A stretch of 64,000 nt of DNA from the NCBI GenBank assembly GCA_964036195.1, contig OZ038458.1, forward strand, positions 24,131,832 to 24,195,831, in the 5' to 3' direction. Position numbers and translations under genes: made by a program. Shown here piece by piece: positions 9,851 to 62,700 of this stretch. The notes under the pieces were generated by a model. It did no database searches. It saw nothing but the letters and a program-made list of their open reading frames with translations, and was not told the DNA's origin. The DNA comes from Sphaerolaimus hirsutus (lineage: Eukaryota > Nematoda > Chromadorea > Monhysterida > Sphaerolaimidae). Each line of letters begins with the position of its first letter. Positions within the stretch are counted from its first letter, which is position 1.

Positions 9851-10104
9851 TAAACACCTTCCCGGTCACGTCCGGCACCCTATTTTTGATCGTACTTGTG
9901 ACACACTATCTCCAGTTCTAGGGCGCGCCAGAAGCTGAAACTTGGGGGAGATATTGGCGCGACCCCCCTAATTCATGCGAGGTAGAGGGGGGTTGCGCCA
10001 ATATCTCCTCCAAGTTTCAGCCTCTGCGGCACCCTAGAACTGGGTATAGGATGTGAGAAGTAAAATCAAAAAATGGGTGCCGGACGTGACCGGGAAGGTG
10101 TTTA
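9851..10104. mobile_element. Palindromic MITE, second copy by duplication
   Basis: Copy of 8879-9132 carried by the ~970-bp tandem duplication. Confidence 0.7.
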
Positions 10105-16690: not shown

Positions 16691-17095
16691 AATGAGTTTA
16701 CGGGAGTTTCCAAATTAGGGGCTGAGTTTATGGGAGTTTCCAAATTAGGGGCTGATATTAAGGGAGTTTCCAAATTAGGGGCTGAGTTTATGGGAGTTTC
16801 TAAATTAGGGGCTGAGTTTATTGGAGTATCCAAATTAGGGCTGAGTTTACAGCAGTTTCCAAATTATGGGTTGAGTTTACAGGAGTTTCCAAAATTGGGG
16901 GCTGAGTTTATGGGAGTTTTCAAATTAGAGGCTGAGTTTAAGGGAGCTTACAAATAAGTGGCTGAGTTTATGGGAGTTTGCAAGTGAGGGGCTGAGTTTA
17001 CAAGAGTTTGCAAGTTAGGGGCTGAGTTTATAGGAGTTTCCAAATTAGGGGCTGAGTTTACAGGAGTTTCCAAACTAGGGGCTGTGTTTACAGGA
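16690..17095. repeat. ~30-bp minisatellite
   Basis: Units of the form gagtttatgggagtttccaa followed by attaggggct. Thirteen or so copies, duplicated at about 18718-19124. The open frames here translate to a repeated GVSKLGAEF-type peptide and are not considered genes. Confidence 0.85.
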
Positions 17096-17523
17096 TTTAG
17101 AGGGGGTCCCCATGGGGTGCCATTTTTGGGGGGTCTCCAGGGGGTGCCATTTTCTGGAGGTACATATGGGGGTGCCATTTCAAGGGGGTCCACATAGGGT
17201 GCCATTTTTTGGGTGGTCCCCAGGGGTGCCATTTTTTGGTGGTCCTCAGGGGGGTGCTATATTTTTTTTTGCAGGGGGGTCCTAAGGGGGTGCCATTTTG
17301 GGGTGGTCCCCAGGGGGTGCCATTTTTGGAGAGTCCCCAGGGGGAGCCAACTTTGGGTGGGTCCCCAGGGGGTGCCATTTTTGTGGGGGTTCCTAGGGGG
17401 TGCCATGTTTGGGGGGTCCCCAGGGGGTGCTATTTTGGGGGGTCCCAAGGGGGTGCCATTTTTGGGGGGTCCCTAAGGGGTGCCATTTTTCGGTGGTCCT
17501 CAGGGGGTGCCATATTTGTGGGT
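17096..17523. repeat. G-rich ~30-bp minisatellite
   Basis: Units of ggggtgccatttttggggg followed by gtccccagg. Duplicated and extended at 19125-19640. Closely spaced G4-5 runs could form quadruplexes. Open frames on both strands are repeat artefacts. Confidence 0.85.
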
Positions 17524-17540
17524 CACTGCAGTCAGCAGTC

Positions 17541-19553: not shown

Positions 19554-19682
19554 CTAGGGGGTCTCATTTTTGGACGGTTCCCAGGGGGTGCCACTTTTGG
19601 GGGGTTCCCCGGGGGGTGCCATTTGGAGGGGGGTCCCCATTGGGGTGTCAGTTTTTGCAAGCCTCTGAGTAGTGGGTACCTA

Positions 19683-38213: not shown

Positions 38214-38642
38214 TGCCCCCTGGCTTCACTCCCACTGTAACATTTTTCACATATTGATATGTTGAGAGTAGGGGCTGAGAATTTGACACTTTATTATCAA
38301 CATTTGGAACTTGATAATAATCATGAGCAAGCACCATTGGGCACACAGCCTTGTGCACATGTGATTTAGAAATTATGACTTGTTGATTTTTAGAATTGGA
38401 TGTCTCAATTTAGGTATTAATACATCAATTTTAATCCACTGTACATCTAATTTAAATCACCATTTACTCAAACTGAACCTTCACACCAACCAAATTAGTT
38501 CCCAGATGCAGCTCAAAGCCACACAATTTTACATGCATTTTCGCAAACGTCCGAGAGAAAAAAAAGAAAAATTTCTTCAGGATTTTTTTCTTCAAAGTGT
38601 AGCAAACTGCGACGACAGCTGAGTCTAGCGGTTGGTTGGTTT
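38214..38642. other. Region upstream of the LINE-like ORF1
   Basis: No gene. The 5' end of the LINE-like element probably lies here (GC content rises from about 38600, followed by a gtgtgtgtggtg tract), but I cannot fix the boundary. Confidence 0.4.
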
Positions 38643-38724
38643 GTGTGTGTGGTGTGTTCGGTGGTGTTTTGGAGCGCTGTAGGCGCTGGTGAACTTGATG
38701 GCCGGCCCAGAAGACATTGTAAGG

Positions 38725-39057
38725 GTATAATCCCTGAAACAAGTGTCTTGGCCGTATGCCAATATCCTACTCGATGCATATACTTGACATTGCGGAACAT
38801 GATCGGCACCCTGAGAAGGGGTTGTGCGGTCTCTGCGTATGTCGTTTGTGATAATGCAATATACAGCGCGCTACCTTCAAGCGCGATCATAATTGATATA
38901 ATGGCACTATGCCAAACGGGGAGTGCATCGAAGTCAGGTTTGGCACTGTGCCAAATTACGAAATATTTACAAATGATCTCAAAAAACAACACGTTCTTAA
39001 TGCTCACTGCTCTTACATGGACAGAAACATCGCATATAATCAATTCAACATACTCAG
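38725..39057 (+). other. Intron-like segment 1 (333 nt), in the leader
   Basis: Donor gtataa, acceptor actcag. Lies upstream of the proposed ORF1 start at 39069. Length 3n and no stop in the ORF1 frame. Contains three TTGGC-N5-GCCAA-type palindromes. Confidence 0.55.
38748..38954 (+). promoter_or_regulatory. Cluster of three TTGGC(N5)GCCAA palindromes
   Basis: At 38748-38762, 38901-38915 (first base A instead of T) and 38940-38954. TTGGC-N5-GCCAA is the full consensus of nuclear factor I (NFI/CTF) sites in animals. They could instead be RNA hairpins. The ORF1 frame reads them as L-A-x-C-Q. Confidence 0.5.
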
Positions 39058-39068
39058 GTGCTACATCG

Positions 39069-42000
39069 ATGGCTGACAGCTCTTCCATGGCCGCAAAGCG
39101 GTGTACCTCGACAACAGCGAAGGTACAACCTATGGCAAAAATGAGCGAGGAAGAATTTGAAGCTAGTTCAACCGGGTACCGACCTGTTTACACTTTTGAT
39201 TTGAGTATTTGGTGTACCTGGGTATACGGCTGGGTAAATGTACCCAAGGTGGAAAAATTATATCTTGAAAATATACATACATTCAATACGGTTGCTGATG
39301 AGACCGCGATGGAGAATACAGTATCAATAGATGATAACTACATTGCTTTACAGATTTTCCTGTCTAACAAATCCGAGACGACCAGGAAATCGCTACGAAA
39401 GAAAAGAGAAAATCTACTGCTTGCCGCTCAAATGAAAGCTAATTCGGTGGGACCTCAGCGTACGAGATCTCAGACACCCGGTCGTGGTAAAATAACGGAA
39501 TTTGTACACGGCAGAGGGAACAACTCTGTGGATGGCTCTGGCGTATTGCCAGCAGAAATATTAGAGGGTGAGTTAAACAATTTACAAATATGGTTATGGG
39601 ATGGAACCTATCAATTCGAAAATATCCAATTAATGTTCTCCTTGTCAAATGAAATAAGTATAAACAGTGAAGTGTACTTGAATATCATCATACGAGCAAA
39701 TGTTTGGGACATACACATTCATGACTTCTTTTGTTACCGGAAACATAACCCCATCTCAGGTGATGTGTCGAGCGACCCGGTTGACAGTGACGATTCAAAC
39801 AGACCGGTCAACCTGGTTCAGGATGAAAATGTCGAAAACAGCGATGATTCAGAAGCGAGTACAATTGAGCCTATTGAAAAGAGCACACCGCAATCGGGAA
39901 AGAAGAAAACCAAGATCGTGGCCAATCAGCCGCGGCACGTGGGCACCACCGTGGTGGACAACGCCAAGGCGCTTGGTGAGATTACTGTCTTTTTTGGTTT
40001 AATAACACTATCGGGGGGCGAGCTATTGAGACTGGAATATGAAAGTTTAAAAGTTTATATACGATCTTTGTACTTGGTACAATACACCATTGGGACAGAA
40101 AATAATAAGTCATATATAACAAAGTATACCCACTTAAATACTTCATGCGACTTTGAAAACGGTTGCTTGAAACGCGAATGCGTAAATATAGAAACAGCAA
40201 ACACTTCTGTATCAGATATTGACGCTCTACACACAGATATGTACCACGCTGGCATGTCAAACTGGGCCTCGCTACTGGATGATATGCCAGAGGACGCGAA
40301 AATTGGTAACACAGGGCTAGATGCGGCTGGCATATGTGCAGATCTCTTTGAATCCCTGGATACTAACAACGCTGGGCCAAACAAAAATGATTTTTCAAAA
40401 ATGATTTCATACATGGGATTTATTAATGGCCAAAATAGGAGATTGGAATGGGGGTTGAGAAAGGTCGGTCCGGGGTATATCCGGGTTTTGAAAGTTTTGA
40501 AAATACCACTGTTGAAATACATTGGTAAAAATAGAGTCGAGGTGCTGCATAAATGTTTGGAAAATGTGACGGTACTATACAATTCACGCACGACATTCTA
40601 TCGAGGATATTTTACTATTGCATTACACTACATGCAGGTGGAGATTAGGTTGGCACAAATCAGTGGGGCTCTGAGCAAATCTGTGAGCGACTTGAACGAA
40701 GATTTTGACAAACACGATGAAGAAATTGAAGATTTACGCAAGCAGATGGGAGGTATAAAAGACGATCTTGATATGCGGCTGGATGTGAGCGGCTTTCTGA
40801 CTGATGACATGCTGGCAATGGTTTGTGTGGGTTGTAAAAATTATGAATGTTTTACGCACCCAAGTTTCAACATAACAAAAATAGGGGGTTATAATGGAAA
40901 AGCGTCTCGGGGGTACTCAACTGCCTCCGAATTACAATTATACCAAATTATCGTCCATCAAAATGGAATAGCCTGTCAAAATAAGGGGGTGGTGTTGAAA
41001 TTATCGCAGTTACATGGATTATGCATACCTTCCCATGACTTACAGGCCGGTGATAATCGCGGCAGGCTGCAAGCCTCACTGCAATGGTTAAAAATGAAAA
41101 TTTTCGAGCATCAATCGGCCATTGATGCGCTGTCAGTGGAAGAAGCAAAGCTAAAGCGCAAGGCGGGCAGGATACAGTCCAAAATACCGACAAAAAAACC
41201 TCGACAGATTGGGGGCGAGGTGACTCTACATGAAAGGGCGCTGCACTCGAATGAACCAGTTTATCGGAAAGGGGCGGAATCGGACATACTGATTACGCTA
41301 ACAGATCCGTCGGACATGTTTGGGTACCTATACCCATGGAATGTGATGTACAACGGCGAAAAATTCCCATGCATTGGGATCGCGCTACTATATGTTAGTT
41401 CAGCATTTCAGTCTACCCTATTCACCTTCTTTCCTTTTCATCTAAATTCTTCGGGGGTCAACATTGGTTACCCAACTGGGTACTGTTGGCAACATGCCAA
41501 TGACACATTCATAGGAGTGTCTAGGAATTTAGTGTCTTGGCAAATCGCCAAAACTGTAGGTGACTGCAACCTGTCATTCATAGGAATGTATTGGCACATA
41601 GCCAAAAATGGGGGTGTTTGTAACTTTCCCTTTATACAAAGCTTTTTTATATCAAACAAATTTCAGGCCGAAAGTGTTTGCACAGGAGACGTAGAGGGAC
41701 AACGCCGCGCCTGTGGGCTGTGCGCATTCTATGCACCCAATGATGGCACTGGCTTCGTGGCGCGACATTTCGAGTTTGTTGGCAAGCTAAACAACGAATG
41801 GACCAAACTGAGTCGATATCAGCACAATCAAAAATCTGTCGACCCCGACATGGACAAAAAATGGTTCAAGTCGGGTATTCAAAAAGGAGATCAAATCTAC
41901 GGCTCCGTTACGGAAGCACAAGAAACGCCGGCGTATATGGAGTTGAAGAGAATTTGCACCAATGTTGTGAAGTGCAATGGCCGAATGAGGTATGCGCTTG

Positions 42001-43070
42001 CAATGTATACTTATGTGAAAAATAGTGTGAAACGCAAAGTATGGTACATTATATGTACGGATAATTTACAAATCCCAAAACATATTCACTTAAGTGAAAA
42101 CAGGATACTTGGATACGTGCCAAATCAGGCAAAGTACACTAAAGGGTGGGGTCAAATAATGAATCGATGCACGGTCAAAATAATTTGTACAAAATGGGGA
42201 TATATCACAATGGGGTATTATTTGAGAAAACACCCATATATTGACTACATCGCAACCCCCCACAGACAACTTCTCTGGCAAACGGGGCAGGCGCGCAACG
42301 ACGATGGAAACTGGGTCGCGCAGGACCGGTACATTCGATGTGGTGGTGTGAATCCACCCACCGGCTTCAAAGGTGCACTTCAATGTGGAAGCGTAAAAGG
42401 CACTGTTGATGTGAGTTTTCACTTTACTATACAATATAGGGGTTGGACACCTAATGGGGGTGTAATTATACAGAATATCGCTCACATCACTGATAAGGGT
42501 GACACTAAACAGGGGGTACCCCACAAATGGGGGTTGCCGCATAAACGTGAATACCGTTTGAGTAAGATAGGAAAAAGTTACAATACGTGGTATTGTACAA
42601 ATGACCGCGAACGTGATAAAGGGTGTGTAGCCGTAAGGATATTTGTACACAACAACTACTCTATAACTTGCAAACTACTAACCAAAACGCAGTGTACGCT
42701 GCCCACCGAGATGGGCCCGTTCTATATGCGGCCATATATGAATCTATACGGCCTAATCTGGATGGAAATTCAGGCGCTCATAACGCAACAAGACGCGTAC
42801 TCGATGCGTCATAAAATCAAAGGACTGCAGCCGCTGGAAGAATGGGACAACTTCGCAAAGGAAACCGGCAAGGGCATGTGGGACCCCGCCGACGGACAGG
42901 GGCTTTATGTACGGACCAATAAGGCAATTTCTGTGCCTGTGTGGTATGACAAAGAGGTGAGATGGAGGTACTTTGTATCTATTTGGACGTTGAGTCGGAA
43001 AAAAAGGGTGCTAACCGTAAATATACAAGGTAGAAACTATTGTGCTGACCGTGGCAAAATGGATGGATAA
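39069..43070 (+). CDS. LINE-like ORF1, N-terminal and central part
   Basis: The first ATG after the proposed leader intron is at 39069 (MADSSSMAAKR). The frame is actually open from 38643. ORF1's own codons run to 43040 (1324 residues); the last 30 bases to the stop at 43070 belong to the BEL LTR. Basic SETTRKSLRKKRENLLLAAQ follows an acidic N-terminus. Residues encoded by 40638-40820 (LNEDFDKHDEEIEDLRKQMG) form a coiled coil, as in many LINE ORF1 proteins. 41667-41989 contains a C-x2-C (ACGLC). ORF1 products usually bind the element RNA; I cannot name the family. Charged, GC-richer blocks alternate with AT-rich intron-like blocks whose translation is rich in I, Y, F, C. The frame is broken only by the LTR. 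Confidence 0.65.
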   Translation: MADSSSMAAKRCTSTTAKVQPMAKMSEEEFEASSTGYRPVYTFDLSIWCTWVYGWVNVPKVEKLYLENIHTFNTVADETAMENTVSIDDNYIALQIFLSNKSETTRKSLRKKRENLLLAAQMKANSVGPQRTRSQTPGRGKITEFVHGRGNNSVDGSGVLPAEILEGELNNLQIWLWDGTYQFENIQLMFSLSNEISINSEVYLNIIIRANVWDIHIHDFFCYRKHNPISGDVSSDPVDSDDSNRPVNLVQDENVENSDDSEASTIEPIEKSTPQSGKKKTKIVANQPRHVGTTVVDNAKALGEITVFFGLITLSGGELLRLEYESLKVYIRSLYLVQYTIGTENNKSYITKYTHLNTSCDFENGCLKRECVNIETANTSVSDIDALHTDMYHAGMSNWASLLDDMPEDAKIGNTGLDAAGICADLFESLDTNNAGPNKNDFSKMISYMGFINGQNRRLEWGLRKVGPGYIRVLKVLKIPLLKYIGKNRVEVLHKCLENVTVLYNSRTTFYRGYFTIALHYMQVEIRLAQISGALSKSVSDLNEDFDKHDEEIEDLRKQMGGIKDDLDMRLDVSGFLTDDMLAMVCVGCKNYECFTHPSFNITKIGGYNGKASRGYSTASELQLYQIIVHQNGIACQNKGVVLKLSQLHGLCIPSHDLQAGDNRGRLQASLQWLKMKIFEHQSAIDALSVEEAKLKRKAGRIQSKIPTKKPRQIGGEVTLHERALHSNEPVYRKGAESDILITLTDPSDMFGYLYPWNVMYNGEKFPCIGIALLYVSSAFQSTLFTFFPFHLNSSGVNIGYPTGYCWQHANDTFIGVSRNLVSWQIAKTVGDCNLSFIGMYWHIAKNGGVCNFPFIQSFFISNKFQAESVCTGDVEGQRRACGLCAFYAPNDGTGFVARHFEFVGKLNNEWTKLSRYQHNQKSVDPDMDKKWFKSGIQKGDQIYGSVTEAQETPAYMELKRICTNVVKCNGRMRYALAMYTYVKNSVKRKVWYIICTDNLQIPKHIHLSENRILGYVPNQAKYTKGWGQIMNRCTVKIICTKWGYITMGYYLRKHPYIDYIATPHRQLLWQTGQARNDDGNWVAQDRYIRCGGVNPPTGFKGALQCGSVKGTVDVSFHFTIQYRGWTPNGGVIIQNIAHITDKGDTKQGVPHKWGLPHKREYRLSKIGKSYNTWYCTNDRERDKGCVAVRIFVHNNYSITCKLLTKTQCTLPTEMGPFYMRPYMNLYGLIWMEIQALITQQDAYSMRHKIKGLQPLEEWDNFAKETGKGMWDPADGQGLYVRTNKAISVPVWYDKEVRWRYFVSIWTLSRKKRVLTVNIQGRNYCADRGKMDG
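39176..39353 (+). other. Intron-like segment 2 (uncertain limits)
   Basis: Possible donor gtaccg and acceptor tttacag give 178 nt, which is 3n+1, unlike most others. Other donors (for example 39186) would give 3n. Stop-free in frame. Contains gtgtacctgggtatac-type palindromes. Confidence 0.35.
39568..39759 (+). other. Intron-like segment 3 (192 nt, phase 1)
   Basis: Donor gtgagt, acceptor atctcag. Exactly 64 codons, no in-frame stop. Flanked by acidic coding sequence (VLPAEILEG before, DVSSDPVDSDD after). Confidence 0.6.
39976..40215 (+). other. Intron-like segment 4 (240 nt, phase 1)
   Basis: Donor gtgaga, acceptor gtatcag. 80 codons, no stop. Holds the hairpin ttgtacttggtacaa at 40068-40082. 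Confidence 0.6.
40464..40637 (+). other. Intron-like segment 5 (174 nt, phase 0)
   Basis: Donor gtcggt (weak), acceptor catgcag. 58 codons, no stop. The donor was chosen among two candidates, so its left limit is less certain. Confidence 0.45.
40821..41045 (+). other. Intron-like segment 6 (225 nt, phase 0)
   Basis: Donor gtttgt, acceptor acttacag. 75 codons, no stop, AT-rich against GC-richer flanks. Confidence 0.55.
41324..41666 (+). other. Intron-like segment 7 (uncertain limits)
   Basis: Donor gtacct and acceptor aatttcag give 343 nt (3n+1); a donor at 41343 would give 324 (3n). Stop-free throughout. Contains three perfect TTGGC-N5-GCCAA palindromes and the hairpin tacccaactgggta (41469-41482). 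Confidence 0.4.
41486..41605 (+). promoter_or_regulatory. Second cluster of three TTGGC(N5)GCCAA palindromes
   Basis: At 41486-41500, 41537-41551 and 41591-41605, all perfect in the ten fixed bases. Here the ORF1 frame reads W-(Q/H)-x-A-(K/N), different from the reading in the 38748 cluster. The shared signal is therefore in the nucleic acid and not in the protein. Confidence 0.5.
41990..42265 (+). other. Intron-like segment 8 (276 nt)
   Basis: Donor gtatgc, acceptor ccccccacag with a polypyrimidine tract. 92 codons, no stop. Contains palindromes gtacattatatgtac (42044-42058) and ttcacttaagtgaa (42085-42098). Confidence 0.6.
42411..42692 (+). other. Intron-like segment 9 (282 nt)
   Basis: Donor gtgagt, acceptor aaacgcag. 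94 codons, no stop. Contains ggggtacccc (42513-42522) and acaatacgtggtattgt (42580-42596). Confidence 0.6.
42957..43040 (+). other. Intron-like segment 10, left part
   Basis: Donor gtgaga at 42957. The BEL/Pao element sits inside this segment; it resumes at 59269 and ends with the acceptor ctgttcag at 59451. Without the insertion and the duplicated target, the length is 84 + 183 = 267 nt (89 codons) with no in-frame stop. Confidence 0.6.
43036..43040. repeat. BEL/Pao target-site duplication, left copy
   Basis: actat directly before the LTR; the right copy is 59264-59268. A 5-bp TSD is usual for BEL/Pao. Confidence 0.9.
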
Positions 43071-44337
43071 AGAAATACAGAGAATTGATAATTAGGCTCA
43101 TATTCGCACATTTGCTTATTTGCACTATTTTACTTTTTATGCACTATATTTATTTACCACGCAAAATATCAAATTGTATTTCCTGCACTATATTATTTAC
43201 CCATGGAGAATATTCGATTAGGAAAGTGCTCTATAAGTTATTGATAGGTTTATGTGGAATGTTTAGGTTAAAAGGTCAAATATGTTATTATTAGGTGTAT
43301 TAATATAAAATTAGGCTCATTCAACTCGCCGTAATTTTCTGATCATGATTATACATACATTTGCATAGTTTACTTGCAGTTTACAAAAGTCAAATCTTGT
43401 AAATATTTACGTGCTGCGTAATTATCTAGGCCAGCGTCCTAATAGAGAAATGGTGCCCTGCGGGCAACTAGCATTTACTTTACAAAGCCCTTCGCATAGG
43501 TATAATTGTCATAACCCTGTTCACAACTATTTATATTTACTTAATAATTATAATACCTTGCTCAATTGAATATATTATAAACTCTGCTCAATTACAATAC
43601 CCATTTACCTCAAATAAGTCCCAATTTGCTAGACTATTCAACATACGTTTCCAGGAAGTGATTATTATTATCATGTTGAATATACCTGATTCTATTTACG
43701 TCATTAGGAACATTTGCACTACTATTTACAGTTTCAAACCCTAATTTATTAGTTCCAATGTGCGTCAATGTTTTCTGACAAATTGAAGCAAATTAGTAAA
43801 TCGGCCGAGTTTGCCGACTTCGCGCCTCAAGATTAATAGTTTTTCCATTAGCCCAATTTGTACCTGGTATTTCTTTACCATAATTATTTGAATGTATGCA
43901 CGCGCAGTATAAGGCAACTGTTTCGGCTAGATGTGTTATTTGTTGCATTTATGTCTTATTTGTGCATTTGTATTAGGAAATTACTGTAGCTGTTTTTCTA
44001 TACGTGATTTCCGTGTCTTAGCTACTTTGAGAGTTTTTACTTCAGTCTGCGGACCCCAAGCTTCTGAACGAAAATAAGCTAGCGATAGAAACTTCGACTA
44101 GGAAGCTCGCTAGGCTTTGCGCTTTTATATTTGGCTGTATCTGATCAAATAAAGTACCTGAAACAATTCGAACCCCCTTTCTCAACACACAACTACGAAA
44201 TAAACTCAACCTGGCTGTCGACAAGTGGACGTTCGGCTACAACGGGAAATCAACCACTCTAAAGGCCGTTTCTCACTACGGTCTTGAAGCAGCCGGATTC
44301 GGTGGTAGAAGACGCTGACTTCGGTGGCTTCATCACA
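43041..44337 (+). repeat. 5' LTR of the BEL/Pao element
   Basis: 1297 bp, TG...CA ends. A TATA-like tataagg occurs near 43908 and a polyadenylation signal aataaa at 44148-44153; these would set the U3/R/U5 limits. It supplies the stop (43068-43070) that truncates the outer ORF1. Confidence 0.93.
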
Positions 44338-44354
44338 TGGCGCAGCGAGCAGGG
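44338..44354 (+). promoter_or_regulatory. Probable primer binding site
   Basis: tggcgcagcgagcaggg begins immediately after the LTR. The leading TGG pairs with the CCA end of a tRNA, as expected for priming of minus-strand DNA. I cannot name the tRNA with confidence. Confidence 0.6.
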
Positions 44355-45567
44355 TGATTGCATGACATTGTGCTATCACCAAGCCGGAACGGACATTGTG
44401 CGGCAGTTGGCAGAACTTCAAAAGTCCTGCTGAACATCAATTGGCCTTGGCTGAGCGTTGGCTGTTGATTTGCAGACAGCATTGTGCCAGAGTCACGGCA
44501 CTCCTGTCTACATCCTGGGAGCGGTTCTACGCTCACGCGCGGAGGACACTGGAGTTCTGACAAGCCTGTCAGGATTTCAGGCAGCTTTCACCAGTGTTCT
44601 GGCAAGGTGCTAGACGCTGGGCGGCACCGGCATTTGACAAGGAGTCATTGTCGGACGGTGGTCAAACTTTCGCTGGACGCTCCTGGACATCTGGACTCCA
44701 GTGACCGCTCGCACGTCCTTCCTATGCCAAGGGAGGGTGACCTGACGGAGACAGGATCGCCACAAAGCCACGCTAGTCAAAGGGCTGTTTTTGGGCATTT
44801 GCGGAGGTCCCTCGCTCCACTGGGTAAGAGTGGACTCATACCTCGGAAGTGCAAAAGTAGGGGTATCAGTGTACAAAGGGCTGTAGCTGACAAAGGGCTG
44901 TAGCTGACAGAGAGTGGATTTGAAAACCAAGTATTAGGATACTTGGTAGCGTGTAGGGGCTTTGCGGAGCTCCCATCAAATATACACGCTGTGCCTGCTC
45001 GGTACCATCAGATCAGACAGCATAAAAGTGCCAGAAATTCTGCATTGCACAGTCGCAATTGCAGAGCAGTGTACAGAAACACTGCCCAGAATCAGAAAGT
45101 GCACCAGAGTGCACAGAAACGTGTCACAGGTGACACGGCAAGCGCAGCACTGCGCACAGCGGCACAGGAGCCGCTCAGGAAAGCAAGTGGCTGGCGTGGT
45201 CACAAGGCACACAGGCGTGCCAGAAAGAGCGCCAGAGCGCTCAGGAAGAGTGTGTACGGACCCTCTTTGGGCGCACACTGCTGGGCAAATAAATTGTTTA
45301 TTGTCCAGGTGGATTTGACCGGTGTGTTGAAGTCAACGCGTGTAAACAATCACGTCAGGGGCTTTAGGAACACACCTGGTGCCAGTGCAGTAAAGGTCAA
45401 CGCGTGAGAACACGTCAGGGGCCTGTAGGACTGCATTGGTATTGTGCGTGGCACAACAAATCCGTGGTGCACAGAGCACTGCACAGAAAGACGCAGAGAA
45501 GCGTCACAAGCGTCACAGGCGACGCACTATAAAAAGAAACAGTGAAGGAAAAAATTCATCAGCAAAA
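44355..45567 (+). other. Leader of the BEL/Pao element
   Basis: About 1.2 kb between the primer site and the first ATG of the large ORF. It holds internal repeats such as gtcaacgcgtg ... cacgtcaggggc (around 45330 and 45390) and gtgcacagagcactgcacag-type words (around 45100 and 45460), possibly RNA structures. Short open frames (44484-44903, 44943-45407) have no recognisable motif. Confidence 0.5.
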
Positions 45568-48500
45568 ATGGTTTCGCCAACAGGTCACATCAGAAAGACC
45601 CTGGGGCCAGCAAAGCACAGGGTGGAAAGTAGATTGGCAAGAGAATTTGCCAAGTATGACCTGGAGCTATTTGCGGAAGCATCAAAGGAAGATAAGAGAA
45701 CAGAGATGAGAAGAGTGATTGCAACTATCAAACAGGAGGGTGCAAAATTGGAAAGTGCAATGACTGCAGTGAGAACTCAATTTGACGCATGGAGGGACAT
45801 CGTCAAGGACATTGACGAACCCGATCAGATGGAACAAGAACAGAAGATATACCAAGACTCATATGAGGAATATGCAAATATGTCAGACTTGGTGACACAG
45901 AAAGTTGTAGCCATGAATGTGTACATCGAAGAGTTGCAAGACATGATCCAGCAACAGAGCGGAAATACCATGTATGAAGTCAATACAGCATTCATACAGC
46001 AGATGGCTGCCCAGATGGCTCTGACAGCTCAGGGAGCTGCTCCGGGGGCCAGTTCAACCAATGCAACCACAGCAAAAAGCGTCAAATTACAGAAACTGGA
46101 AGTGGAACAGTTTACTGGGGAAATTGTCAAATTTCGATCATGGTGGCAAATGTTCGAATCCCACATCCACAATCGGACAGATTTGGAGGACATTTCCAAG
46201 TTCTCATACTTGAGGAGCTTGCTGAAAGGCTCAGCATTTGGCATGATCAGTGGATTGAGTGTGACAGCAGAGAATTATGCACCTGCAATTGCAATGCTCA
46301 AAAAGAGATATGACCAGCCAGTTGTGGTCAGAAACACGCTGATGAGTAATATCATGAAGCTGCGACAGGCCAGAAATACCTGTCAGGATATGAGAATTTT
46401 GTTTGATGCAATTGAAAGGCTGCTCCAGCAGTTGGAGTCACTGGGTGAATCAGTGGAACATCCAATGCTGTTGAGCCAGCTACAACAGAAAGTGCCACCC
46501 GAGGTTCTCAGAGAAATCCAGAAGGAACAGGGAACTGAGGAAGCCTTGACGGTGGAAAAATTCAGAAAGCTGTTTGGCCAGCAGCTAGCGCTCAGTGAGG
46601 CTGTACAGCACGCACAGCAAACTGAGGCACCAGTTCAGCAATCGCGCCAAGGATTTGGGAATAATCCCCGCGCACAGCAATTCAATAATCGGTTTCAAGG
46701 CAATGGGAACCGATTCAGAGGGCCAGAGAACCCAAGGACCAGCACAGGGAGCATGTCTGTGATCCAGAATGGACAGAGTGCACCACAGGCTGGATTCATG
46801 AATCCTGGGAGGCCGTGTGTGTTCTGCAATGACACACAGCAATTACACTTTAACGATAAGTGTCCAAAGTTCAAAACTGCCAGAGAAAGGAGAGTGATTT
46901 TGTCAAAGGCAGAGCGATGCCTGAGATGCCTGCAGAAAGGGCATTACATGAATCAATGTCAATTTACGAGAAGTTGCTTCTATTGCAAGTCCAATAGGCA
47001 CCACACTGCGGTGTGCCCAGAGAAATTTGGTGACAATGGCAATGGAAACGCTGGACGGCAAATTCCAGCATTTAGAGCAAATGGTCAACAGAATGGCCAG
47101 CAATCAACAAACAATGGCAGAAAGTCTGTGCCGACGGCCGGTCGACCAGCACAGAGCCAACAGAGAAAAGCCACAGTGAATTGTGTCACTGTGGAAGAAG
47201 CTGGACCAGAAATGGTAGAGACAGAAACCATATCCAGCACAGTGGTTACAGAACCAAATACAAAGCAACAAAATACGTCAGTGAACCTGTCAGTAAACAG
47301 GAATATGTCAATGTTGATGACAGCCAGAACCGTGATTGAGGCTTCAGAAATGGATACAGAGATGGAGCCTGAACAGCCACCACTACAGATTCAAGCGTTC
47401 CTGGACACAGGATCCCAGGGAACATACATGTCAGAGAAAGTGGCCAAGAAACTCAATTTGAAGAGTACAGGTGAACACCACATCCAGGTGTACACATTCG
47501 GAAATGAAAAGCCGCACTATAAAGTAGTACAGCAAGTGGAATTCAGAATGCGACTCAGAAATGGCCAGAAAGTTGATATGGTGGCTGATGTGGTCCCGAC
47601 GTTGACCACAGAACAAGTCAAAGTGCCTGTGTCAGAACAGGACGAAAAGTATCTGCAGAAGTACTTCCCGGATGAGAGTTACTTTGCAGACAGAATTCCC
47701 AAAGGAAAAGGGACAGAGTGCAAGTTCAAGCCAGACATTATAGTAGGCTTGAATTATTTCTGGGACTTGATGTCCAGAAACACCAGCACCACCAGACTTC
47801 CGTCAGGATTGTATGTCATTCCATCAGAATTGGGATTGCTGATGGGAGGTGGGCAGCTGACGAGCAACAGAAATCAATGGACCACGGATGGTGCATATCC
47901 GGTGGTGGTCAACACAATTGTGCATCAAATTCAGAGAGAAAAGTGGTACGAGGAAGCACCGTTGTCAATTGCTCCTGTACCAAATGTCAAAGACATGGAC
48001 AGACTGGATACCATTGGCATAATGGACCAGCCAGACCTCGTCGAGGACGATGAGGCCATCAAGCAATTCAATGAGAGTGTACAGAGAAACCCAGATGGAC
48101 GGTACTCTGTAAAGTTCATGTACAAACCGAATTTGCATGAACTCCCAGATAACAAAGCAATGGCGTTCAAGAGGTTCAGGTACCTCACCAACAGGCTCAA
48201 GAGAGACCCAGAATTACTAGAGAAAATTCAGGCAATCATGAAAGCACAGGAGGAGCAAGGAGTGATTGAGAAGGTCCAAGAGGATATTATGGATGGCAGA
48301 AAATTCCATATTTTGCCTCATCAACCAGTGATAACGCCAGAGAAAACTACCACAAAGGTCAGAGAGGTATATGATGCCTCAGCGAAACCGCCAGGCATGC
48401 CAAGCTTGAATGAGTGCATGTACCGCGGTCCAGTCATACTACCACAGCTGGTAGGGATGCTGATGCGATTCCGATTGCATGGAATTGCACTGGTCGCAGA

Positions 48501-54267: not shown

Positions 54268-54312
54268 AAGTCTGTATGTTCCCCACGCTGGGCACATACA
54301 TGCACATTATTG
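54057..54312. repeat. Left subterminal array of gggcacataca/tgtatgtgccc
   Basis: About a dozen words of gggcacataca or gggcacatgca and their complements in alternating orientation, each pair able to form a hairpin. Matches the right array 57415-57702. Such arrays are typical transposase binding regions of hAT elements. Confidence 0.75.
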
Positions 54313-54397
54313 TGCCACCATAAATTCAATACCAATTGCGTGCCCCCATGAATGCCCCATTTATCGACTGGCGGCTATCGATTTTATTGGCATCTAT

Positions 54398-54576
54398 CAA
54401 ACACAAAGTCATAGCCAGTTGCCGCACAGACATATGAAGATGTTACAATTATTGTCGTGAGCTACTAGACATGCAAAGTTCTGGCTGCTGATTTTTATGA
54501 AAGTGTATCGAGTGCGGCACAGTAGTTGCGGCATGATCATATGTCTGTGCAGCAACTGGCTATGACTTTGTGTTTG
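54398..54576. repeat. Foldback with ~38-bp arms
   Basis: caaacacaaagtcatagcca at the left and tggctatgactttgtgtttg at the right are exact complements; the arms include a cagacatatga / tcatatgtctg pair. Confidence 0.75.
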
Positions 54577-54837
54577 CCTCCAAGGTGCCGCACTGCCTTC
54601 TGAACTTGCGACACCAAAAATATAGCATAAGTGATATGCTGAACGGAGATAATAAAATTAATATACGCCAGTCAATAAATGTGAACCGTCGCTGAACCAA
54701 ATTTATATACTGCAGCCTTCTCGCTGATTCCCATGCATTGCTTGATCGCAAATGTTGTACAATTATCTATTTTGAAAACAGTAGATGTCCAATTAAATCC
54801 TAATGTCCTAATTGAAACAGATTTAGTTTGAATGTGG

Positions 54838-55099
54838 TATACTCCAGTTACTTTACACCTTGCACGCGTGGTTCCCGCTGGAAGTGCGCCAATGATGGTT
54901 AACGCGTGCAAGTTTCAAAAAAAGATGACAAAAAAGATGACAAAAATGATTGTTGTTATAATGTTTTTCAATAATATATTCACATCGATGATTTTTTTTC
55001 ATCTTTTTACGGAAATCGCATGATCTGATAATCATTGGCACGCTTCCAACACAAGACATAAATCAGTGCGAGGGCAGAGTATCATGTACGCCGAGTATA
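54838..55099. mobile_element. TATACTC MITE, copy 2
   Basis: tatactccagttactttaca to gccgagtata; reverse-complement relative of 1148-1396. Confidence 0.7.
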
Positions 55100-55353
55100 T
55101 CGGTCCACTAATTTTGTGCTATTTTAAGATCAAATGTGGACTGTACGCCATTTATCGTCATCCTATGAATTGTCTGAGACGTAAAACATTGGAAAACCTT
55201 GGCATAACTTGAAAAAGTTTGGCTGAAAAATTGTCAAAAAATAGAAGCGAATATAGATATATGAAATGAAATGTGATTGTGATAAATGTTGCACAATTTA
55301 TGAAAACAATTGAGTCTATAACTACCTATATAATTGGACACACAAATTGTTGA

Positions 55354-55602
55354 TATACTCCGGTTACTTTACACCTTCCGCCGGTGGTTCCCGCTGGAAG
55401 TGTGCCAACGATGATTAACATGTGCTAGTTTCATAAAAAGATGACAAAATTGATTGTTGTCATAATGTTATTCATAAACATATTGACATCGATGAATTTT
55501 TTCATCGTTTTACCGAAATCGCATGATTTGATACTCATTGGCATGCTTCCAACACGAGACATAAATCAGTGCGAGGGTAGAGTATCATGTCCGCCGAGTA
55601 TA
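55354..55602. mobile_element. TATACTC MITE, copy 3
   Basis: tatactccggttactttaca to ccgccgagtata; same orientation as copy 2, about 255 bp downstream of it. Confidence 0.7.
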
Positions 55603-56524
55603 GCAAGGTACGAATCAATAACTGCTGACACTTCAAGTCAAATCACACCCAAAAGGAACATATTTACCTTGAGTGATGCCGCCATAGTTTGTTGTGCATG
55701 CATGGTGGCCCAAAAAGTATTTGGTCAACTTTCACAGTATTTATCAACTAAAACTCCAATAACAATCATATCAAAGTAGTAATGATTGCAAACAAAATTT
55801 CGGAGATTCAAAAACGTTTTTGAAATTTAAAATTTGGAATTTTTATATCACCACTAGGAAAAACACTTCAAAATCAATTTTAAAAATCTTAAAAATCTTC
55901 ACTTAAAAATCAATAAGTATTGGTGAATGAAAATTAAGTGTGCCTATGATAATCAATGCATGTCATTTTTGTTAAAGTTGAATTTTTTGTTAAAGTTGAC
56001 TATTTGAGCATGAAATATTCTGGAAAATAACGATTCTAAAAATCTTGTCTGATCGAGCCATTTTTGGGCCACCCTGCAATTTCACTATGGTGATATGTAG
56101 AACATTTCGAACCACCCAGCAAATCATGTGAGTCAAAAATACACACACTCGGCAGACCGCAAAGTATGCGCAGAATCCAACCATAATTTGATGAATAAAA
56201 TCTTGTGATAGATTTCGTAATTACTTATTCTATTGTAAAAACGAAATATTATGATGAAAAACTGTCTTATTTTTTGTTCATAATTCAGATGGGTTACGGT
56301 AGGTTTCCATACTAAGTGTGATGTCCGCCGAGTATAGGTATCTATTCACATGGAGCTGCAAAGGTCGATGTCGATATTATCAAAGGATCAATAGTTAAAT
56401 TGGGTGGGAGGGGTGGTTGGCAGCGGTACAGATCAATGGCTGAGTGCAACGGGATTTAGCAGCGGGAAAAAATGCAGCGGCTACAGATACACATGTGCTC
56501 AGCGCCATTGCGCTGGTTGCAGTA
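55603..56524. other. Gene-free interior of the hAT-like element
   Basis: AT-rich, no ORF of interest. 56160-56335 is a diverged copy of the repeat beside the assembly gap (gcgcagaatccaaccataat, gggttacggtaggtttccat). Confidence 0.5.
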
Positions 56525-56532
56525 GCTGCGGC

Positions 56533-56862
56533 TAGTGATGTGAAAAGCGCCAGAACTTTGGCGCCAAGCGCCAAAAGCGCCATGGCGCTTTTCCGACCCC
56601 TAGCGCCAAGCGCCAATGGCGCCAGAGCAAAATGGCGCCAAGCGCCAGAAGCGCCATGGCGCTTTTTGCTTTGGCGGTAGCGCTAAGCTCCAGCGCCAGG
56701 CATTTTGTTCCTGGCGCCGGTAAAAAATGGCGCCAAGCGCCAAAAGCGCCATGGCGCTTTTCATGAGCGTGGCGCCACAGCAAAATAGCGCCAAGCGCCA
56801 AAAGCGCTTTTTGCTTTGGCGCTAGCGCCAGGCGCCAGCGCCATGGCGCTTTTACATCACTA
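56533..56862. mobile_element. hAT-like GGCGCC-rich element, small copy
   Basis: 330 bp, tagtgatgtgaaaagcgcc to ggcgcttttacatcacta, with an 8-bp TSD gctgcggc (56525-56532 and 56863-56870). Filled with ggcgccaagcgccaaaagcg words that fold extensively. Confidence 0.8.
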
Positions 56863-56870
56863 GCTGCGGC

Positions 56871-57414
56871 ACATTCAAAGGGTGGCGAGGCAACTCTGCG
56901 GCACATTTGTGTTTGCCGCCACGTTGTCGCATTTGCTCTGTAATTTTTATAATCTGTCGCCCTTATCAATGTTGCCGCCGATAATCAGTTACCGTACTTC
57001 TTCCAATTGAGAGCACAGTTCTATTTTTTTGTCTACTTTTTTACCTGCCGTTCTATTGGAGGGGAGGCTACCATTCTATTGTTTACGTGAGTGCAAAAAA
57101 TGACAAAACCTACTGTTCTATTGGCAGAATCCTGCCCTATTAAAAATACAGTTGCGCCTGTTCATTTTAGCAGCGCCTATCCTTAAACTTTGGGCGCCGG
57201 CAGTTTGCACTTGCATTTCTGCGTCCTGAATACTGGATATTGGCGCTTAGCCGATCACCCAAATTCGCTCTGGCTGCCAAAAATTATCGGCCAATTTTTA
57301 CTTGTTCTAAGGGCGCCATTCGCAAATGGAAACTGCCAGCACCCGGAAATCTAGGGATGGGCGTCGCTGAACTGAATAAAGGCTCGAAAGGAATAACTCA
57401 ATTTTCTGTGGCAA
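56871..57414. other. Gene-free interior of the hAT-like element, right part
   Basis: 57030-57140 contains the cttctattgg/aatagaaggg-type repeat. No gene seen. Confidence 0.5.
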
Positions 57415-57702
57415 CAAATATGCATGTTCCCAAACGTGGGCACATACAATTTTTTTAAAGTATGTATGTTACCGCAACTGGGCACATACATGTTTTTCTG
57501 AAATGTATGTGACCGAAATCATGGGGAACATACACGCATGTATGTTTCCAAGCGCGGGCACATGCATTGTTTTCAAAAGTTGCATGTGCCCAAAGCTGGA
57601 AACATACATTCTTTTTATCGCTTGCATGTTCCCAAATATGGGGAACATACATAGGGGGCACATGCAGGGGCACATACGTATGTGCCCCTCCCGGACAGTC
57701 TG
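57415..57702. repeat. Right subterminal array of gggcacataca/tgtatgtgccc
   Basis: Counterpart of 54057-54312, for example cgtgggcacatacaa, ctgggcacatacatg, gttgcatgtgcccaaag and cacatacgtatgtgcccc. Confidence 0.75.
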
Positions 57703-57924
57703 GTTCACATGCCTGATATCCGCAAATTCACCACACGCGAACGCGCAGGAAGCGACACGGGCAACTACCTGCTTCATCATCAGGCTAGGTCGGCGTTGGC
57801 ATCACCAGCAACCGGACCTGCAACTTCACGCACGCCCACGACTTCGCGCACGACCACGTTCACCACCGAGGCGACTGTGGAAACGCCACTCATCACTTTG
57901 GCGCCCACCACCACCAGCATGTGA
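57703..57924 (+). pseudogene. Detached C-terminal end of the BEL/Pao polyprotein
   Basis: After the right TSD copy the same reading frame as the large ORF (45568) continues without a stop to TGA at 57922-57924. About 70 residues, Ser/Thr/Pro-rich at the end. In this copy it is cut off from the rest by the hAT-like element. It is probably the original end of the envelope-like cytoplasmic tail. Confidence 0.7.
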
Positions 57925-57966
57925 CGTTGCTGCAACAACGGGGTGCAGCAACTCTTCCGCCCGGAG

Positions 57967-59263
57967 TGTGCTGACCGTGGCAAAATGGATGGATAAAGAA
58001 ATACAGAGAATTGATAATTAGGCTCATATTCGCACATTTGCTTATTTGCACTATTTTACTTTTTATGCACTATATTTATTTACCACGCAAAATATCAAAT
58101 TGTATTTCCTGCACTATATTATTTACCCATGGAGAATATTCGATTAGGAAAGTGCTCTATAAGTTATTGATAGGTTTATGTGGAATGTTTAGGTTAAAAG
58201 GTCAAATATGTTATTATTAGGTGTATTAATATAAAATTAGGCTCATTCAACTCGCCGTAATTTTCTGATCATGATTATACATACATTTGCATAGTTTACT
58301 TGCAGTTTACAAAAGTCAAATCTTGTAAATATTTACGTGCTGCGTAATTATCTAGGCCAGCGTCCTAATAGAGAAATGGTGCCCTGCGGGCAACTAGCAT
58401 TTACTTTACAAAGCCCTTCGCATAGGTATAATTGTCATAACCCTGTTCACAACTATTTATATTTACTTAATAATTATAATACCTTGCTCAATTGAATATA
58501 TTATAAACTCTGCTCAATTACAATACCCATTTACCTCAAATAAGTCCCAATTTGCTAGACTATTCAACATACGTTTCCAGGAAGTGATTATTATTATCAT
58601 GTTGAATATACCTTATTCTATTTACGTCATTAGGAACATTTGCACTACTATTTACAGTTTCAAACCCTAATTTATTAGTTCCAATGTGCGTCAATGTTTT
58701 CTGACAAATTGAAGCAAATTAGTAAATCGGCCGAGTTTGCCGACTTCGCGCCTCAAGATTAATAGTTTTTCCATTAGCCCAATTTGTACCTGGTATTTCT
58801 TTACCATAATTATTTGAATGTATGCACGCGCAGTATAAGGCAACTGTTTCGGCTAGATGTGTTATTTGTTGCATTTATGTCTTATTTGTGCATTTGTATT
58901 AGGAAATTACTGTAGCTGTTTTTCTATACGTGATTTCCGTGTCTTAGCTACTTTGAGAGTTTTTACTTCAGTCTGCGGACCCCAAGCTTCTGAACGAAAA
59001 TAAGCTAGCGATAGAAACTTCGACTAGGAAGCTCGCTAGGCTTTGCGCTTTTATATTTGGCTGTATCTGATCAAATAAAGTACCTGAAACAATTCGAACC
59101 CCCTTTCTCAACACACAACTACGAAATAAACTCAACCTGGCTGTCGACAAGTGGACGTTCGGCTACAACGGGAAATCAACCACTCTAAAGGCCGTTTCTC
59201 ACTACGGTCTTGAAGCAGCCGGATTCGGTGGTAGAAGACGCTGACTTCGGTGGCTTCATCACA
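57967..59263 (+). repeat. 3' LTR of the BEL/Pao element
   Basis: 1297 bp, same limits as the 5' LTR; aataaa at 59074-59079 would act as the polyadenylation signal. No strong polypurine tract is visible just before 57967 (only gcccggag). Confidence 0.93.
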
Positions 59264-59268
59264 ACTAT
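59264..59268. repeat. BEL/Pao target-site duplication, right copy
   Basis: actat directly after the LTR, matching 43036-43040. Confidence 0.9.
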
Positions 59269-59451
59269 ACGGAATTTCATATTGAACTGGAACTACATAC
59301 CTACATTGTCATTTATTCATTAAAAAATGAATCGAAGTACGGTAGTTGGGGATATTTAGACAAAGTTGTGTATATCAATACACACAAAAGGAAAAATAGA
59401 TTTATATTTTCGTTGTATAAACTGAAACTATCTTCTGACCTCTCTGTTCAG
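59269..59451 (+). other. Intron-like segment 10, right part
   Basis: Continuation of 42957-43040 beyond the BEL/Pao insertion, ending with acceptor ctctctgttcag. It stays in the ORF1 frame with no stop. Confidence 0.6.
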
Positions 59452-59718
59452 ATACAGTCCAGGGCGGGCGCTCAATTTACGGGCACGCGCGGCGGATTCA
59501 GAGGTCGTGGCAGGGGCCAACAATTTCAAGGGGGTCAAAATATAGGCGGCAACTATCAAAACCAGTCGCAATCCAATTTTATGGGCGCATATGCGGGAGG
59601 AAACAGTCGTCGCTTCTCAAGGATGCGTGGAAACTTTGGAAATAGAGGGGGGGGCGCGGCCCATCCCAGGGAAATATGGCGAGTTCTACGTGGAACACGC
59701 CGAGCAACGAAATCTTAG
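59269..59718 (+). CDS. LINE-like ORF1, C-terminal part
   Basis: Same frame as 39069-43040 once the BEL/Pao element and one target copy are left out; stop TAG at 59716-59718. Encodes an RGG/RG-rich tail (GGFRGRGRGQQFQGG and later RGNFGNRGGG), a nucleic-acid-binding composition common in RNA-binding and gag-like proteins. In this copy it is separated from the rest of ORF1 by 16 kb, so no full product is expected unless the whole interrupted intron-like segment is spliced out. Confidence 0.65.
   Translation, partial: TEFHIELELHTYIVIYSLKNESKYGSWGYLDKVVYINTHKRKNRFIFSLYKLKLSSDLSVQIQSRAGAQFTGTRGGFRGRGRGQQFQGGQNIGGNYQNQSQSNFMGAYAGGNSRRFSRMRGNFGNRGGGAAHPREIWRVLRGTRRATKS
59647..59654 (+). promoter_or_regulatory. 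Run of eight G, possible -1 frameshift site
   Basis: GGGGGGGG followed by cgcggc, 22 bases before the ORF2 ATG. ORF1 reads it as ggg ggg ggc. A -1 slip here enters the ORF2 frame, and no stop lies between. Reinitiation at 59676 is an alternative. Confidence 0.4.
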
Positions 59719-62700
59719 AGGAAGGCGCCGAAGAAACCCCGCTCGTAACAGAGATGGATGATAATGAAGAAATTATCGATGAAAGTGATGGCCCGGATGG
59801 TGCCTTTGGTAGGTGGAACTTTATCAATTTAGGGGGGCTAGTGTTCCCAAATACAAACCGGGGGTCAACAGAGGTAACGGTAAAACGCAATACGAGATAC
59901 AACTTGGAAAAATGGATTTCTGTTTTAAAAAATTCAAGAAATATAGATAAAAAAAGTATAAAAAAGGAACTTTCTAGGGTAGACATACTCACTCCTTTTG
60001 AACTAATACGCAAAATTATGCCTAAACACTCAGAAACGCCGAATGTACCTGCACGTGGCAGCGACAAAGAACAGCGCCGCGCCAAACTACTGAGAGAGCT
60101 CGCGGTACTGGATGGGGGCAAACAGAATGGGCCGGTGATAGAGGAAATTGAAAGTGAGTTTTCTAGAGAAGTAGAAATCTTGACTAAGTGTAACCTGTCT
60201 AATGACAGGTTCTACATAGACAGTTTACAATTGGGGATCCCTGGGACTAAAAAAGTAAGAAGCTCACCCTGGCAGTACATGGTCTTAAATATATACAAAA
60301 CTCGTGAAAATATACAAACTTATCAACCTTTCGACGTATCAACTTATATTATAGACATTATCGATATACATGATATTTATATGAACAATTGGCATACTTG
60401 CGTTGTAAATACATATAGAAACACCGAAAAAATAGCATTGCAGGTAATTTTCGACATAAAATGCTTTGCTAAAGACAAAACTATAATGACGATAAACACT
60501 AACATATCCTATATCACGCCAGGTACGGCAACGGCCGCGGCGCGCACGTTCGCGAGCGTGGCAAAATCGGCGACAAACACCAAGGCAAGCAAGGGGGTCG
60601 TGTCAGGATTTGTGGGATCGACTACAACTAGAATGAACACACAGGTGCGTGCGGGGCGTATGGTTCCACGATACGGCCTGTACAAACAATTGCTACTGCA
60701 CCAACTTGAAGCGAAGACGCAACAGAAATGCCGGAAAATACTTCGAAAATTCGTGAAATCTAAAAATTCGGATCCGGAAAATGTGATACTTTTTGACACT
60801 AAAATTGAGAAATCCGGCCCGCTTTCAGTTTCCAAAATTCTTCGTTCATTGTCTCTGGGTATTGATATGGGCCCTGTGGTAGAAAAACGACAGGTTGATA
60901 GATCTGCGTTGATTGATTCCGATTACCGATCGGAAACGGTACAGACACCGGTACTTGGGGATTTTTTCTTTACAATTCTCGTCTTGGGTGACAGTACCGG
61001 GTCCGATTTGACAAAGTGTGTGACAGATTTCCTGGTAGCAAAGGGTACCCCTACAATTGTACACTCAACTAAGAGTCTTTTCAATGGCTGCAGGCTAAAT
61101 ACATTAGGTGCCAACTTGGTTGCCTTAGGGAGTAAAACTATGTATGATGTTGTTTGCGTGCGCGGGGTGTTGGACATTATTGGAATTGAGTCCGGCTACA
61201 TATTTGACAACTCGAAATTGTTGCTCCTGGATAGGGGGATCGTTAAATTTATTGATTTTGTCTTCAACTACAACAGCGGGTTGATCCATCCATGTGGGTA
61301 CTTGTTATTGAGTTTGATTGGGCCGTGTCTGCCACACGAACGTGAATTATGGGATAGGGACCTTGCATGCGATACGATGCAATTTTTATGTGAATTAGAA
61401 AATAGGCTGATTGTAACTGTGGGTAAATATTTGAATGTAAAAATTATGCCGCTGATGAATTATTTGACCACGAATTGGAGGAAAATGGGATTTTCAGCAC
61501 CGGTAGATGCCATGTTGGCCATGGTGTGCAACGACGGCATGCACACCACCCAGATTGGGCTCGAAATCATATCAGAGCTGATTAGGATATCCCTCTTTGA
61601 CATGTGGGTTACGTTAGAAAATGGGGTGATAACATATAATTGCGATTTTTATGGAAACTATATACTAAATGCTACCTCCCTCTCAGGTTCAGAAAAAGAC
61701 AGGAAGTTCTACTGCGGGGATGAAAATGCAGCGCGGTGCGGCGACATCGAAAAGAGCGAAACGAGTGGGGCCATTCAGTGGCCTGGGTTTCTGATTGATG
61801 TATCCACGCTATGGAAAACTGTGATGGTAGATGGGTTTCATATTAAATATGGACAGCACACAGAATACAATAGACAAAATATTGATAATGTGCAAAAAAC
61901 CCATCTACCTACTTGTGTAGTTGAAGTTGACTTAGGTGTAATATTGTTGGAATTTGGCACCTCGCCAGGTGGTGGAAAATGTTTATTTGAAGAAATATGG
62001 ACAAATGTCATGCAACCGGCGAAAATACATTTCAAACATGTTGACGTGCTGCTATGGACTATGATAATTATACAAGGCATTCTATATAGTAGCTGCCTTT
62101 CCTCAGCGATTTATGAGAACATAAAGCATGTCATCATGTTTCATACGAAGCGGTATGAGCGCTGTGGATATTTTTTGCATTTATTGATACAAATACAATG
62201 TATACAAACTCGAATAAGTAGTTCCTTTTTCATGATCTCTGGACGGATTGCAACCTCATATTTTAACATCATGATCTTTATTATCAAATATTTTACAGCT
62301 GTAATAAGTATGTGTGTGTACATGGTGTTGCCTAGAGCGTTACAATTGTGTGTTCAATTATGCCGGCAGCCAGTGATTAGTGCGTGGTTGTTTTTTATGT
62401 TACAAATAAAAAAGGTGGAGGCGAGTACGTTTGATAATTCCTTTTTAGAGACAAATACGTTGTCGCTATGCAGCGCAATAGCCATAACTTTGGTATACCA
62501 AAATACACGTAATCTATGCAACCAGATTGATGCTTTAAAAGATCTGATAAAATCTACAAAGGCTGACATATTCGGTTTTGTGGAAACGAACTTCAAATCA
62601 GCAATGGAATCGATAGAGATATCAGGTTATGAAGGGTTTCATCAGTTTCATGATTTAAGTGGTACTGGAGGCCTTAGTTTCTACATAAGAAGGGGGGTGC

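Follow-up and report, generated by a model that had tools for sequence, protein, structure and literature searches.

A LINE of the nematode Sphaerolaimus hirsutus appears to carry about a dozen readable introns through retrotransposition

Retrocopies are expected to lose their introns, and this expectation is used to tell genes from retrocopies. How, then, can a retroelement hold intron-like blocks inside its long open reading frames (ORFs)? The question is raised by a 64,000-nt stretch of the Sphaerolaimus hirsutus genome (GCA_964036195.1, contig OZ038458.1, positions 24,131,832 to 24,195,831), hereafter the window, which contains a copy (W) of a long interspersed nuclear element (LINE). An initial annotation had seen two possibilities in its AT-rich blocks: introns kept readable, or protein-coding insertions that mimic introns. 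Here we compare W with relatives found elsewhere in this genome. By this comparison, retrotransposition has carried along about a dozen introns whose positions and splice dinucleotides are conserved. As the best explanation, and a likely one, we propose a LINE RNA with two uses, in which a splice switch (intron M) and copying in cis would purge introns that cannot be read. Coordinates are positions in the window; introns are lettered as in Table 1.

The ORFs at 38499-43070 and 59646-64000, which the initial annotation had described as two frames each open for more than 4 kb, are open throughout; the end of the first falls inside a long terminal repeat (LTR), and both are parts of one LINE, interrupted within intron J by the insertion of a young BEL/Pao element. 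The LTRs of the insertion (43041-44337 and 57967-59263) are 1297 bp each with 1 mismatch, and the target duplication is ACTAT. With the BEL element removed, the reconstructed empty site gives an ORF1 of 1663 codons that overlaps ORF2. This unity, like intron M, had not been foreseen. Pfam matches to a reverse transcriptase (RT) and to an APE-type endonuclease upstream of it place the element among LINEs; RVT_1 was matched in the relative C14b (E 3e-35), and W continues as homologous sequence beyond the window. No LTR-like repeat links the element ends in the matches among W and the relatives C2 and C16, the window LTRs belonging to BEL. The 3' ends of C2 and C16 carry a short ACAAAT-type repeat, and no target site duplication was seen by eye at the ends of either.

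All 11 introns B to L of W have lengths divisible by three (3n) and hold no in-frame stop. Over 14 blocks, none of the 1165 in-frame codons is a stop, whereas the two other frames have 97 and 87; given the blocks' own composition the chance of this is about 1e-34, below the 1e-18 first calculated. The splice-like block ends reported earlier also hold up. A splice-blind two-state hidden Markov model recovered the AT-rich blocks at the places first given; it also marked the esterase region and everything past 61782, and composition alone was rejected as a definition of the blocks. Acceptor-like sites, scored like the donors with weight matrices, are concentrated at the 3' edges (within 15 nt; observed score reached by 0 of about 2,365 shifts) and donor-like sites at the 5' edges (p 0.0025 within 25 nt, p 0.036 within 15 nt), and swapped-edge controls gave p 0.27-0.98. 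The best donor and acceptor pairs, chosen blind to phase, were 3n in 8 of the 11 model blocks; a slightly lower-scoring acceptor restores 3n in two of the others, and the third has no usable donor in range. Ten of the lengths first listed were 3n, and D may be 261 nt. The two blocks given as 3n+1, with donors at 39176 and 41324, had been mis-bounded: the homologous sites, 39162 and 41394, give 3n. The blocks do not form one repeat (introner) family, a candidate dropped when no match below E 0.02 was found among W blocks and only 2 of 1081 intron pairs from six copies matched at E 1e-3, none of them at the same position. Predicted RNA folding of the blocks was similar to that of exons (z-scores -1.84 to +1.65), and short perfect hairpins were not enriched in them (12 per 3526 bp vs 12 per 5748 bp elsewhere).

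A search of the genome (348 Mb, 762 contigs) found the element in at least 16 places, window included; wider stretches were examined for 12 of these, the four shortest being left out. The closest pair, C2 and C16, is 98.76% identical over 11,874 nt with every block kept, and the match stops at the element, the flanks shown being different. Copies have evidently moved together with their introns. At greater distance, the DNA alignment of W with C2 covers exons only (66-80% identity per piece), not blocks, with an exon dN (nonsynonymous divergence) of 0.20 over 1625 codons and a saturated dS (synonymous divergence). Esterase protein identities among W, C2, C14b, F7, F1 and F122 are 46-61%, but 72% for F1 and F122. 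The ORF1 exons of C14b and C3 are recognisable only from the last one on, and in F15, F4, F9 and F3 the upstream exons are missing, save single short matches in F4 and F3. A distant relative (L035, C9:19455000-19464900) has a single open frame of 2075 codons, in which about 1000 codons upstream of the endonuclease match no known exons; these might be readable introns too. F1 (9602-9829) and F122 (10044-10331), from the C1 and C122 loci L028-L029 and L032-L033, both lack intron K but have, further upstream, an extra intron of 228 and 288 nt that separates the RGG-rich ORF1 end from ORF2; its length is 3n and it has no stop in the frame of the ORF. It puts ORF1 and ORF2 into one frame, and W, C2, F7 and C14b do not have it.

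Are the block boundaries conserved across these copies? When the W exon ends of B to L were projected by protein alignment onto five relatives, GT was found at 30 of 40 donors, AG at 34 of 40 acceptors, and 3n lengths in 36 of 40; the absent K of F1 and F122 is not among the 40. Sites were then placed by homology and by eye. Introns C and L of F1 and J and L of F122 were dropped for poor anchors, B of F1 and B, C and D of F122 were not found, and C14b contributes K and L only, leaving 47 placed introns (W 11, C2 11, F7 11, F1 7, F122 5, C14b 2). Among these six copies, 45 of the 47 are 3n and 43 lack an in-frame stop; 41 start with GT (4 GC, 2 AT), and all 47 end with AG by choice of site. Over their 3805 codons, stops in frame number 11, compared with 334 and 311 for the two other frames. 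Nine of the 11 sit in the two introns that are not 3n (C2 I and F1 H); C2 J and F122 E have the remaining two, one apiece. In none of the 80 same-position pairs could the interiors be aligned. On indel phase, which the initial annotation had proposed to compare, 72 of the 80 pairs had equal lengths or lengths that differ by a multiple of three. It had also pointed to copies that lack single blocks precisely. Intron K is such a case: it is missing from F1 and F122, where the flanking exons meet precisely at its boundaries. Like spliceosomal introns, the blocks have GT-AG ends whose positions are conserved and can be precisely present or absent between relatives, and their boundaries are kept by selection. 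Together with length and openness, these features favour introns kept readable. Donor choice follows the same pattern. The phase 2 introns (H in 5 copies, M in 7) have GTAAG or GTGAG donors in 0 of 12 cases, against 22 of 42 in the others (Fisher p 7e-4); in phase 2 these donors would read as stop (TAA, TGA).

Selection inside and outside the blocks can be compared in C2 and C16, which differ by 143 substitutions in total. The exons have 58 changes (17/9/32 by codon position; 0.0084 per site), 35 synonymous and 23 nonsynonymous vs about 14 and 42 if neutral. The introns, counted here together with block A, M and the sequence from M up to the endonuclease, show 74 changes (27/23/24; 0.0194 per site), with 19 synonymous and 52 nonsynonymous vs 17.5 and 52.9 expected, and their rate nearly equals that of synonymous change in exons, about 0.021. 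This comparison, which the initial annotation had proposed, gives purifying selection in exons and the neutral expectation in blocks, and it speaks against protein-coding insertions that mimic introns. The codon-position signal of the blocks (0.0057 bits) is that of stop-stripped random sequence (0.0055, sd 0.0020), compared with 0.0223 in exons, and their open-frame preference per codon is 0.037 (null 0.033, sd 0.011; exons 0.087); the blocks are therefore open but unlike selected protein. No selection on the block peptide is discernible in the one close pair, and over the long term selection acts for readability and 3n length while the block sequence drifts freely. Given conserved ends, neutral interiors and constrained exons, the blocks therefore behave like spliceosomal introns in which selection favours readability and not the peptide. 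In the pair C3 and C14b, differences by codon position are 39/37/70 in the esterase (w 0.30) and 83/72/87 in M plus the spacer that follows it (w 0.59), where some constraint or alignment effect remains; the endonuclease-RT value of this pair is unreliable because C3 is frame-shifted.

Intron M is of another kind. It lies just after the esterase, is 65-89 nt long, and has a length of 3n+2 in all 7 copies when its sites are set by homology. Splicing of M would lead, in every copy, to a short tail of related sequence and then a stop. If M is kept, the path from M to the endonuclease has 0 stops in 1712 codons in 6 of the 7 copies, against 130 and 108 in the other frames. M looks like a switch deciding whether RT is made.

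These features can be joined in one account. Part of the RNA would be spliced, giving compact ORF1 and esterase proteins. Splicing of M would shift the frame into the short tail and its stop, so M-spliced RNA would not read on into RT. RNA that retains M would be read through M and any other retained intron into the endonuclease and RT. Cis preference is known from other LINEs, and here RT would copy the RNA it was made from; the copied RNA would therefore keep M and, mostly, the other introns. An intron gaining a stop or a frame shift would cut its RNA off from its own RT and would be purged. Since almost any combination of spliced and retained introns among B to L stays in frame, a single RNA population could be both message and genome, an arrangement known from retroviruses but here lacking LTRs. 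For the most specific form of the proposal, translation-licensed intron inheritance, we put the chances a little above even: M would confine RT to incompletely spliced RNA, cis preference would copy RNA whose retained introns are all readable, and about a dozen introns would so persist over deep divergence.

Could the blocks simply never be spliced, being always-translated, in-frame, AT-rich spacers that are only intron-like? Like the blocks, such spacers would travel with the element as open, in-frame stretches of 3n length. GT and AG, however, are retained at exact homologous places despite saturated interiors, K is exactly absent from two copies, the block amino acids are under no visible selection, and the constant 3n+2 of M is relevant only if M is spliced; we regard this reading as very unlikely. 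Real introns whose readability only shields unspliced genomic RNA from nonsense-mediated decay (NMD), with no part for RT in cis, would be subject to the same selection against stops and frame shifts, and a functional protein from intron-bearing RNA would not be required. NMD alone, an unlikely account in our view, does not explain why the spacer that separates M from the endonuclease is open in 6 of the 7 copies, or why M is always 3n+2; NMD escape and RT in cis are not mutually exclusive. It is extremely improbable that the template is mechanically never spliced (being antisense or self-primed, a route proposed for Penelope elements), or that copies spread as DNA, with readability arising from something else, for instance a host whose introns are all readable. 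Penelope elements do retain introns (PMC3846280), but an antisense template has no need of readable introns and the C2/C16 match stops at the element. Stops are also ordinary in intergenic parts of the window (1-38498), where the longest open run is 212 codons.

Several observations weigh against the proposal of an RNA with two uses. The donors of 6 of the 47 introns are GC or AT, and the placed sites of these introns and of M were chosen partly by eye. Intron I of C2 and its sister C16 is 3n+2 with stops, though this lineage moved at least once; intron H of F1 is 3n+2 with 6 stops, and intron E of F122 holds one stop. Between C2 and C16, stop-making or stop-removing intron changes number 3 vs 3.6 expected, so that no purge is visible in the pair; two of the three lie in J, downstream of the frame-broken intron I. 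A purge of stops would therefore show over long times, not in one pair. For M, an alternative donor 4 nt downstream would give 3n+1, tail differences (100/96/135 by codon position) have only a modest bias, and the frame of F7 is broken in the stretch that separates M from the endonuclease.

A LINE moving with about a dozen introns would break the intron-loss rule for retrocopies. Its introns would be under natural selection for one property alone, translatability, and cis preference, NMD escape, and intron gain and loss could be tested within one natural system.

Table 1. Features of the window copy W and of the element nested in it.
Feature	Position	Strand	Details
LINE, part 1	38560..43040	+	5' end (approximate) and ORF1 up to BEL insertion; W aligns with C2 and C16 from 38560-38561 on; open frame
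LINE, part 2	59269..64000	+	ORF1 end and ORF2; ORF2 runs past window end, to 1895 codons
BEL/Pao LTR element	43041..59263	+	Young, in intron J, not part of LINE; LTR pair, target duplication; Pfam Peptidase_A17, RVT_1, DUF1759, fusion glycoprotein
Block A	38725..39057	+	Near 5' end; open in ORF1 frame; donor uncertain; outside intron counts
Intron B	39162..39353	+	192 nt; GC donor in W, GT in C2 and F7
Intron C	39568..39759	+	192 nt
Intron D	39976..40236	+	261 nt (alternative end 40215, 240 nt)
Intron E	40464..40637	+	174 nt
Intron F	40821..41045	+	225 nt
Intron G	41394..41666	+	273 nt
Intron H	41990..42265	+	276 nt; phase 2
Intron I	42411..42692	+	282 nt; in C2 245 nt with stops
Intron J	42957..59451	+	267 nt excluding nested BEL element
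Intron K	59809..60033	+	225 nt; absent from F1 and F122
Intron L	60154..60522	+	369 nt
Esterase-like (SGNH) domain of ORF2	60900..61603	+	GDS and DGxH motifs; Pfam SGNH in 1 of 6 members; model/PDB matches
Intron M	61604..61686	+	83 nt, 3n+2; proposed splice switch
Open spacer, M to endonuclease	61687..62396	+	May contain another intron; frame free of stops in 6 of 7 copies
APE-type endonuclease domain	62397..63170	+	Pfam PF03372, PF14529
RT part, start only	63171..64000	+	Window end cuts through; homologous alignment goes on past window
M-spliced tails			W MFRKRQEVLLRG; C2 MYRRRSEVLQE; C14b MYRKRAEILHLA; C3 MYRKQAEILHLA; F7 MYRKRAKVLQ; F1 MYKKRAETLA; F122 MYHKRARCLR

The esterase-like domain of ORF2 has GDS and DGxH motifs that are invariant in 6 sequences, and the Pfam SGNH match in one of the members has E 0.003. 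A structural model of middling confidence (mean pLDDT, a per-residue confidence score, 54) matched PDB entries that include GDSL enzymes at E 0.01-0.04, plus unrelated folds, none at E <= 0.001; a single-sequence fold (pLDDT 34) was discarded. The RT part shares about 28% identity with its closest relatives in databases, and the endonuclease and RT have only distant relatives in databases. No relatives beyond this genome were found in viral contig or genome contig collections, none were found for an ORF1 stretch, and Rfam gave no match at gathering scores.

At the 5' end (38560-38650), W, C2, F1 and F122 have a DNA motif in common (around AAACTGCGACGAC ... GTCTAGCGG), perhaps an internal promoter, and W has no in-frame ATG upstream of block A. 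Block A and the 5' exon were first assumed to be coding; this was dropped, and block A was left out of the counts, because the 5' exon resembles a conserved DNA motif more than coding sequence. Exact TTGGCNNNNNGCCAA palindromes occur 7 times in the window (38748, 38940, 41486, 41537, 41591, 23456, 23596), where base counts predict about 0.06 per 64 kb. Five of the seven are inside blocks A and G, and in block A of relatives they translate as LALCQ or LAQCQ; they resemble NFI-type sites or small hairpins. The BEL/Pao element is apparently intact, with a single 2957-codon ORF and a fusion-glycoprotein-like envelope domain (Pfam Monjiviricetes_fusion, E 3e-15), and its 3' part (54060-54300 and 57410-57690) has imperfect-palindrome arrays based on GGGCACATACA. 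Elsewhere in the window, a compound tandem array with units of about 116-118, 30 and 27 bp is present in two copies (15859-17610 and 17887-19657), about 2,028 bp apart.

How does this LINE compare with known systems? The literature searched, which excludes most subscription papers, yielded no comparable LINE among the matches listed. Some CR1/L2-like LINEs have an esterase domain, and the present element is like them in its APE-type endonuclease, RT and SGNH-like esterase; to our knowledge, those LINEs are intronless. Introners are introns linked to mobile DNA; the LINE blocks differ in having no sequence common to one another. Exitrons are stop-free introns inside coding exons and are enriched in 3n lengths (45.8% in Arabidopsis, about 55% in human; PMC4484396). 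They are protein-coding sequence of host genes, while in the LINE 45 of 47 introns are 3n and the block is not itself constrained coding sequence, its substitutions being neutral and its codon signal that of a stop-free random null. Penelope-like elements are retroelements that keep introns, and in-frame inserts in their ORF have also been described (PMC3846280). They have a GIY-YIG endonuclease, where the present one is APE-type, with no GIY-YIG match among the Pfam matches of its endonuclease searches; readable 3n introns are not described for them in the available part of PMC3846280. The logic proposed for intron M is that of the BARE1 (and copia) LTR retrotransposons. In BARE1 a 104-nt intron, whose length works out as 3n+2, decides between Gag and Gag-Pol: part of the RNA has it removed, which brings a stop just after Gag, and Pol is left to unspliced RNA (PMC3735527). 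The present element differs in being a LINE with an endonuclease and about a dozen further readable introns, and it would extend to a LINE the copia/BARE1 logic by which Gag is spliced away from Pol.

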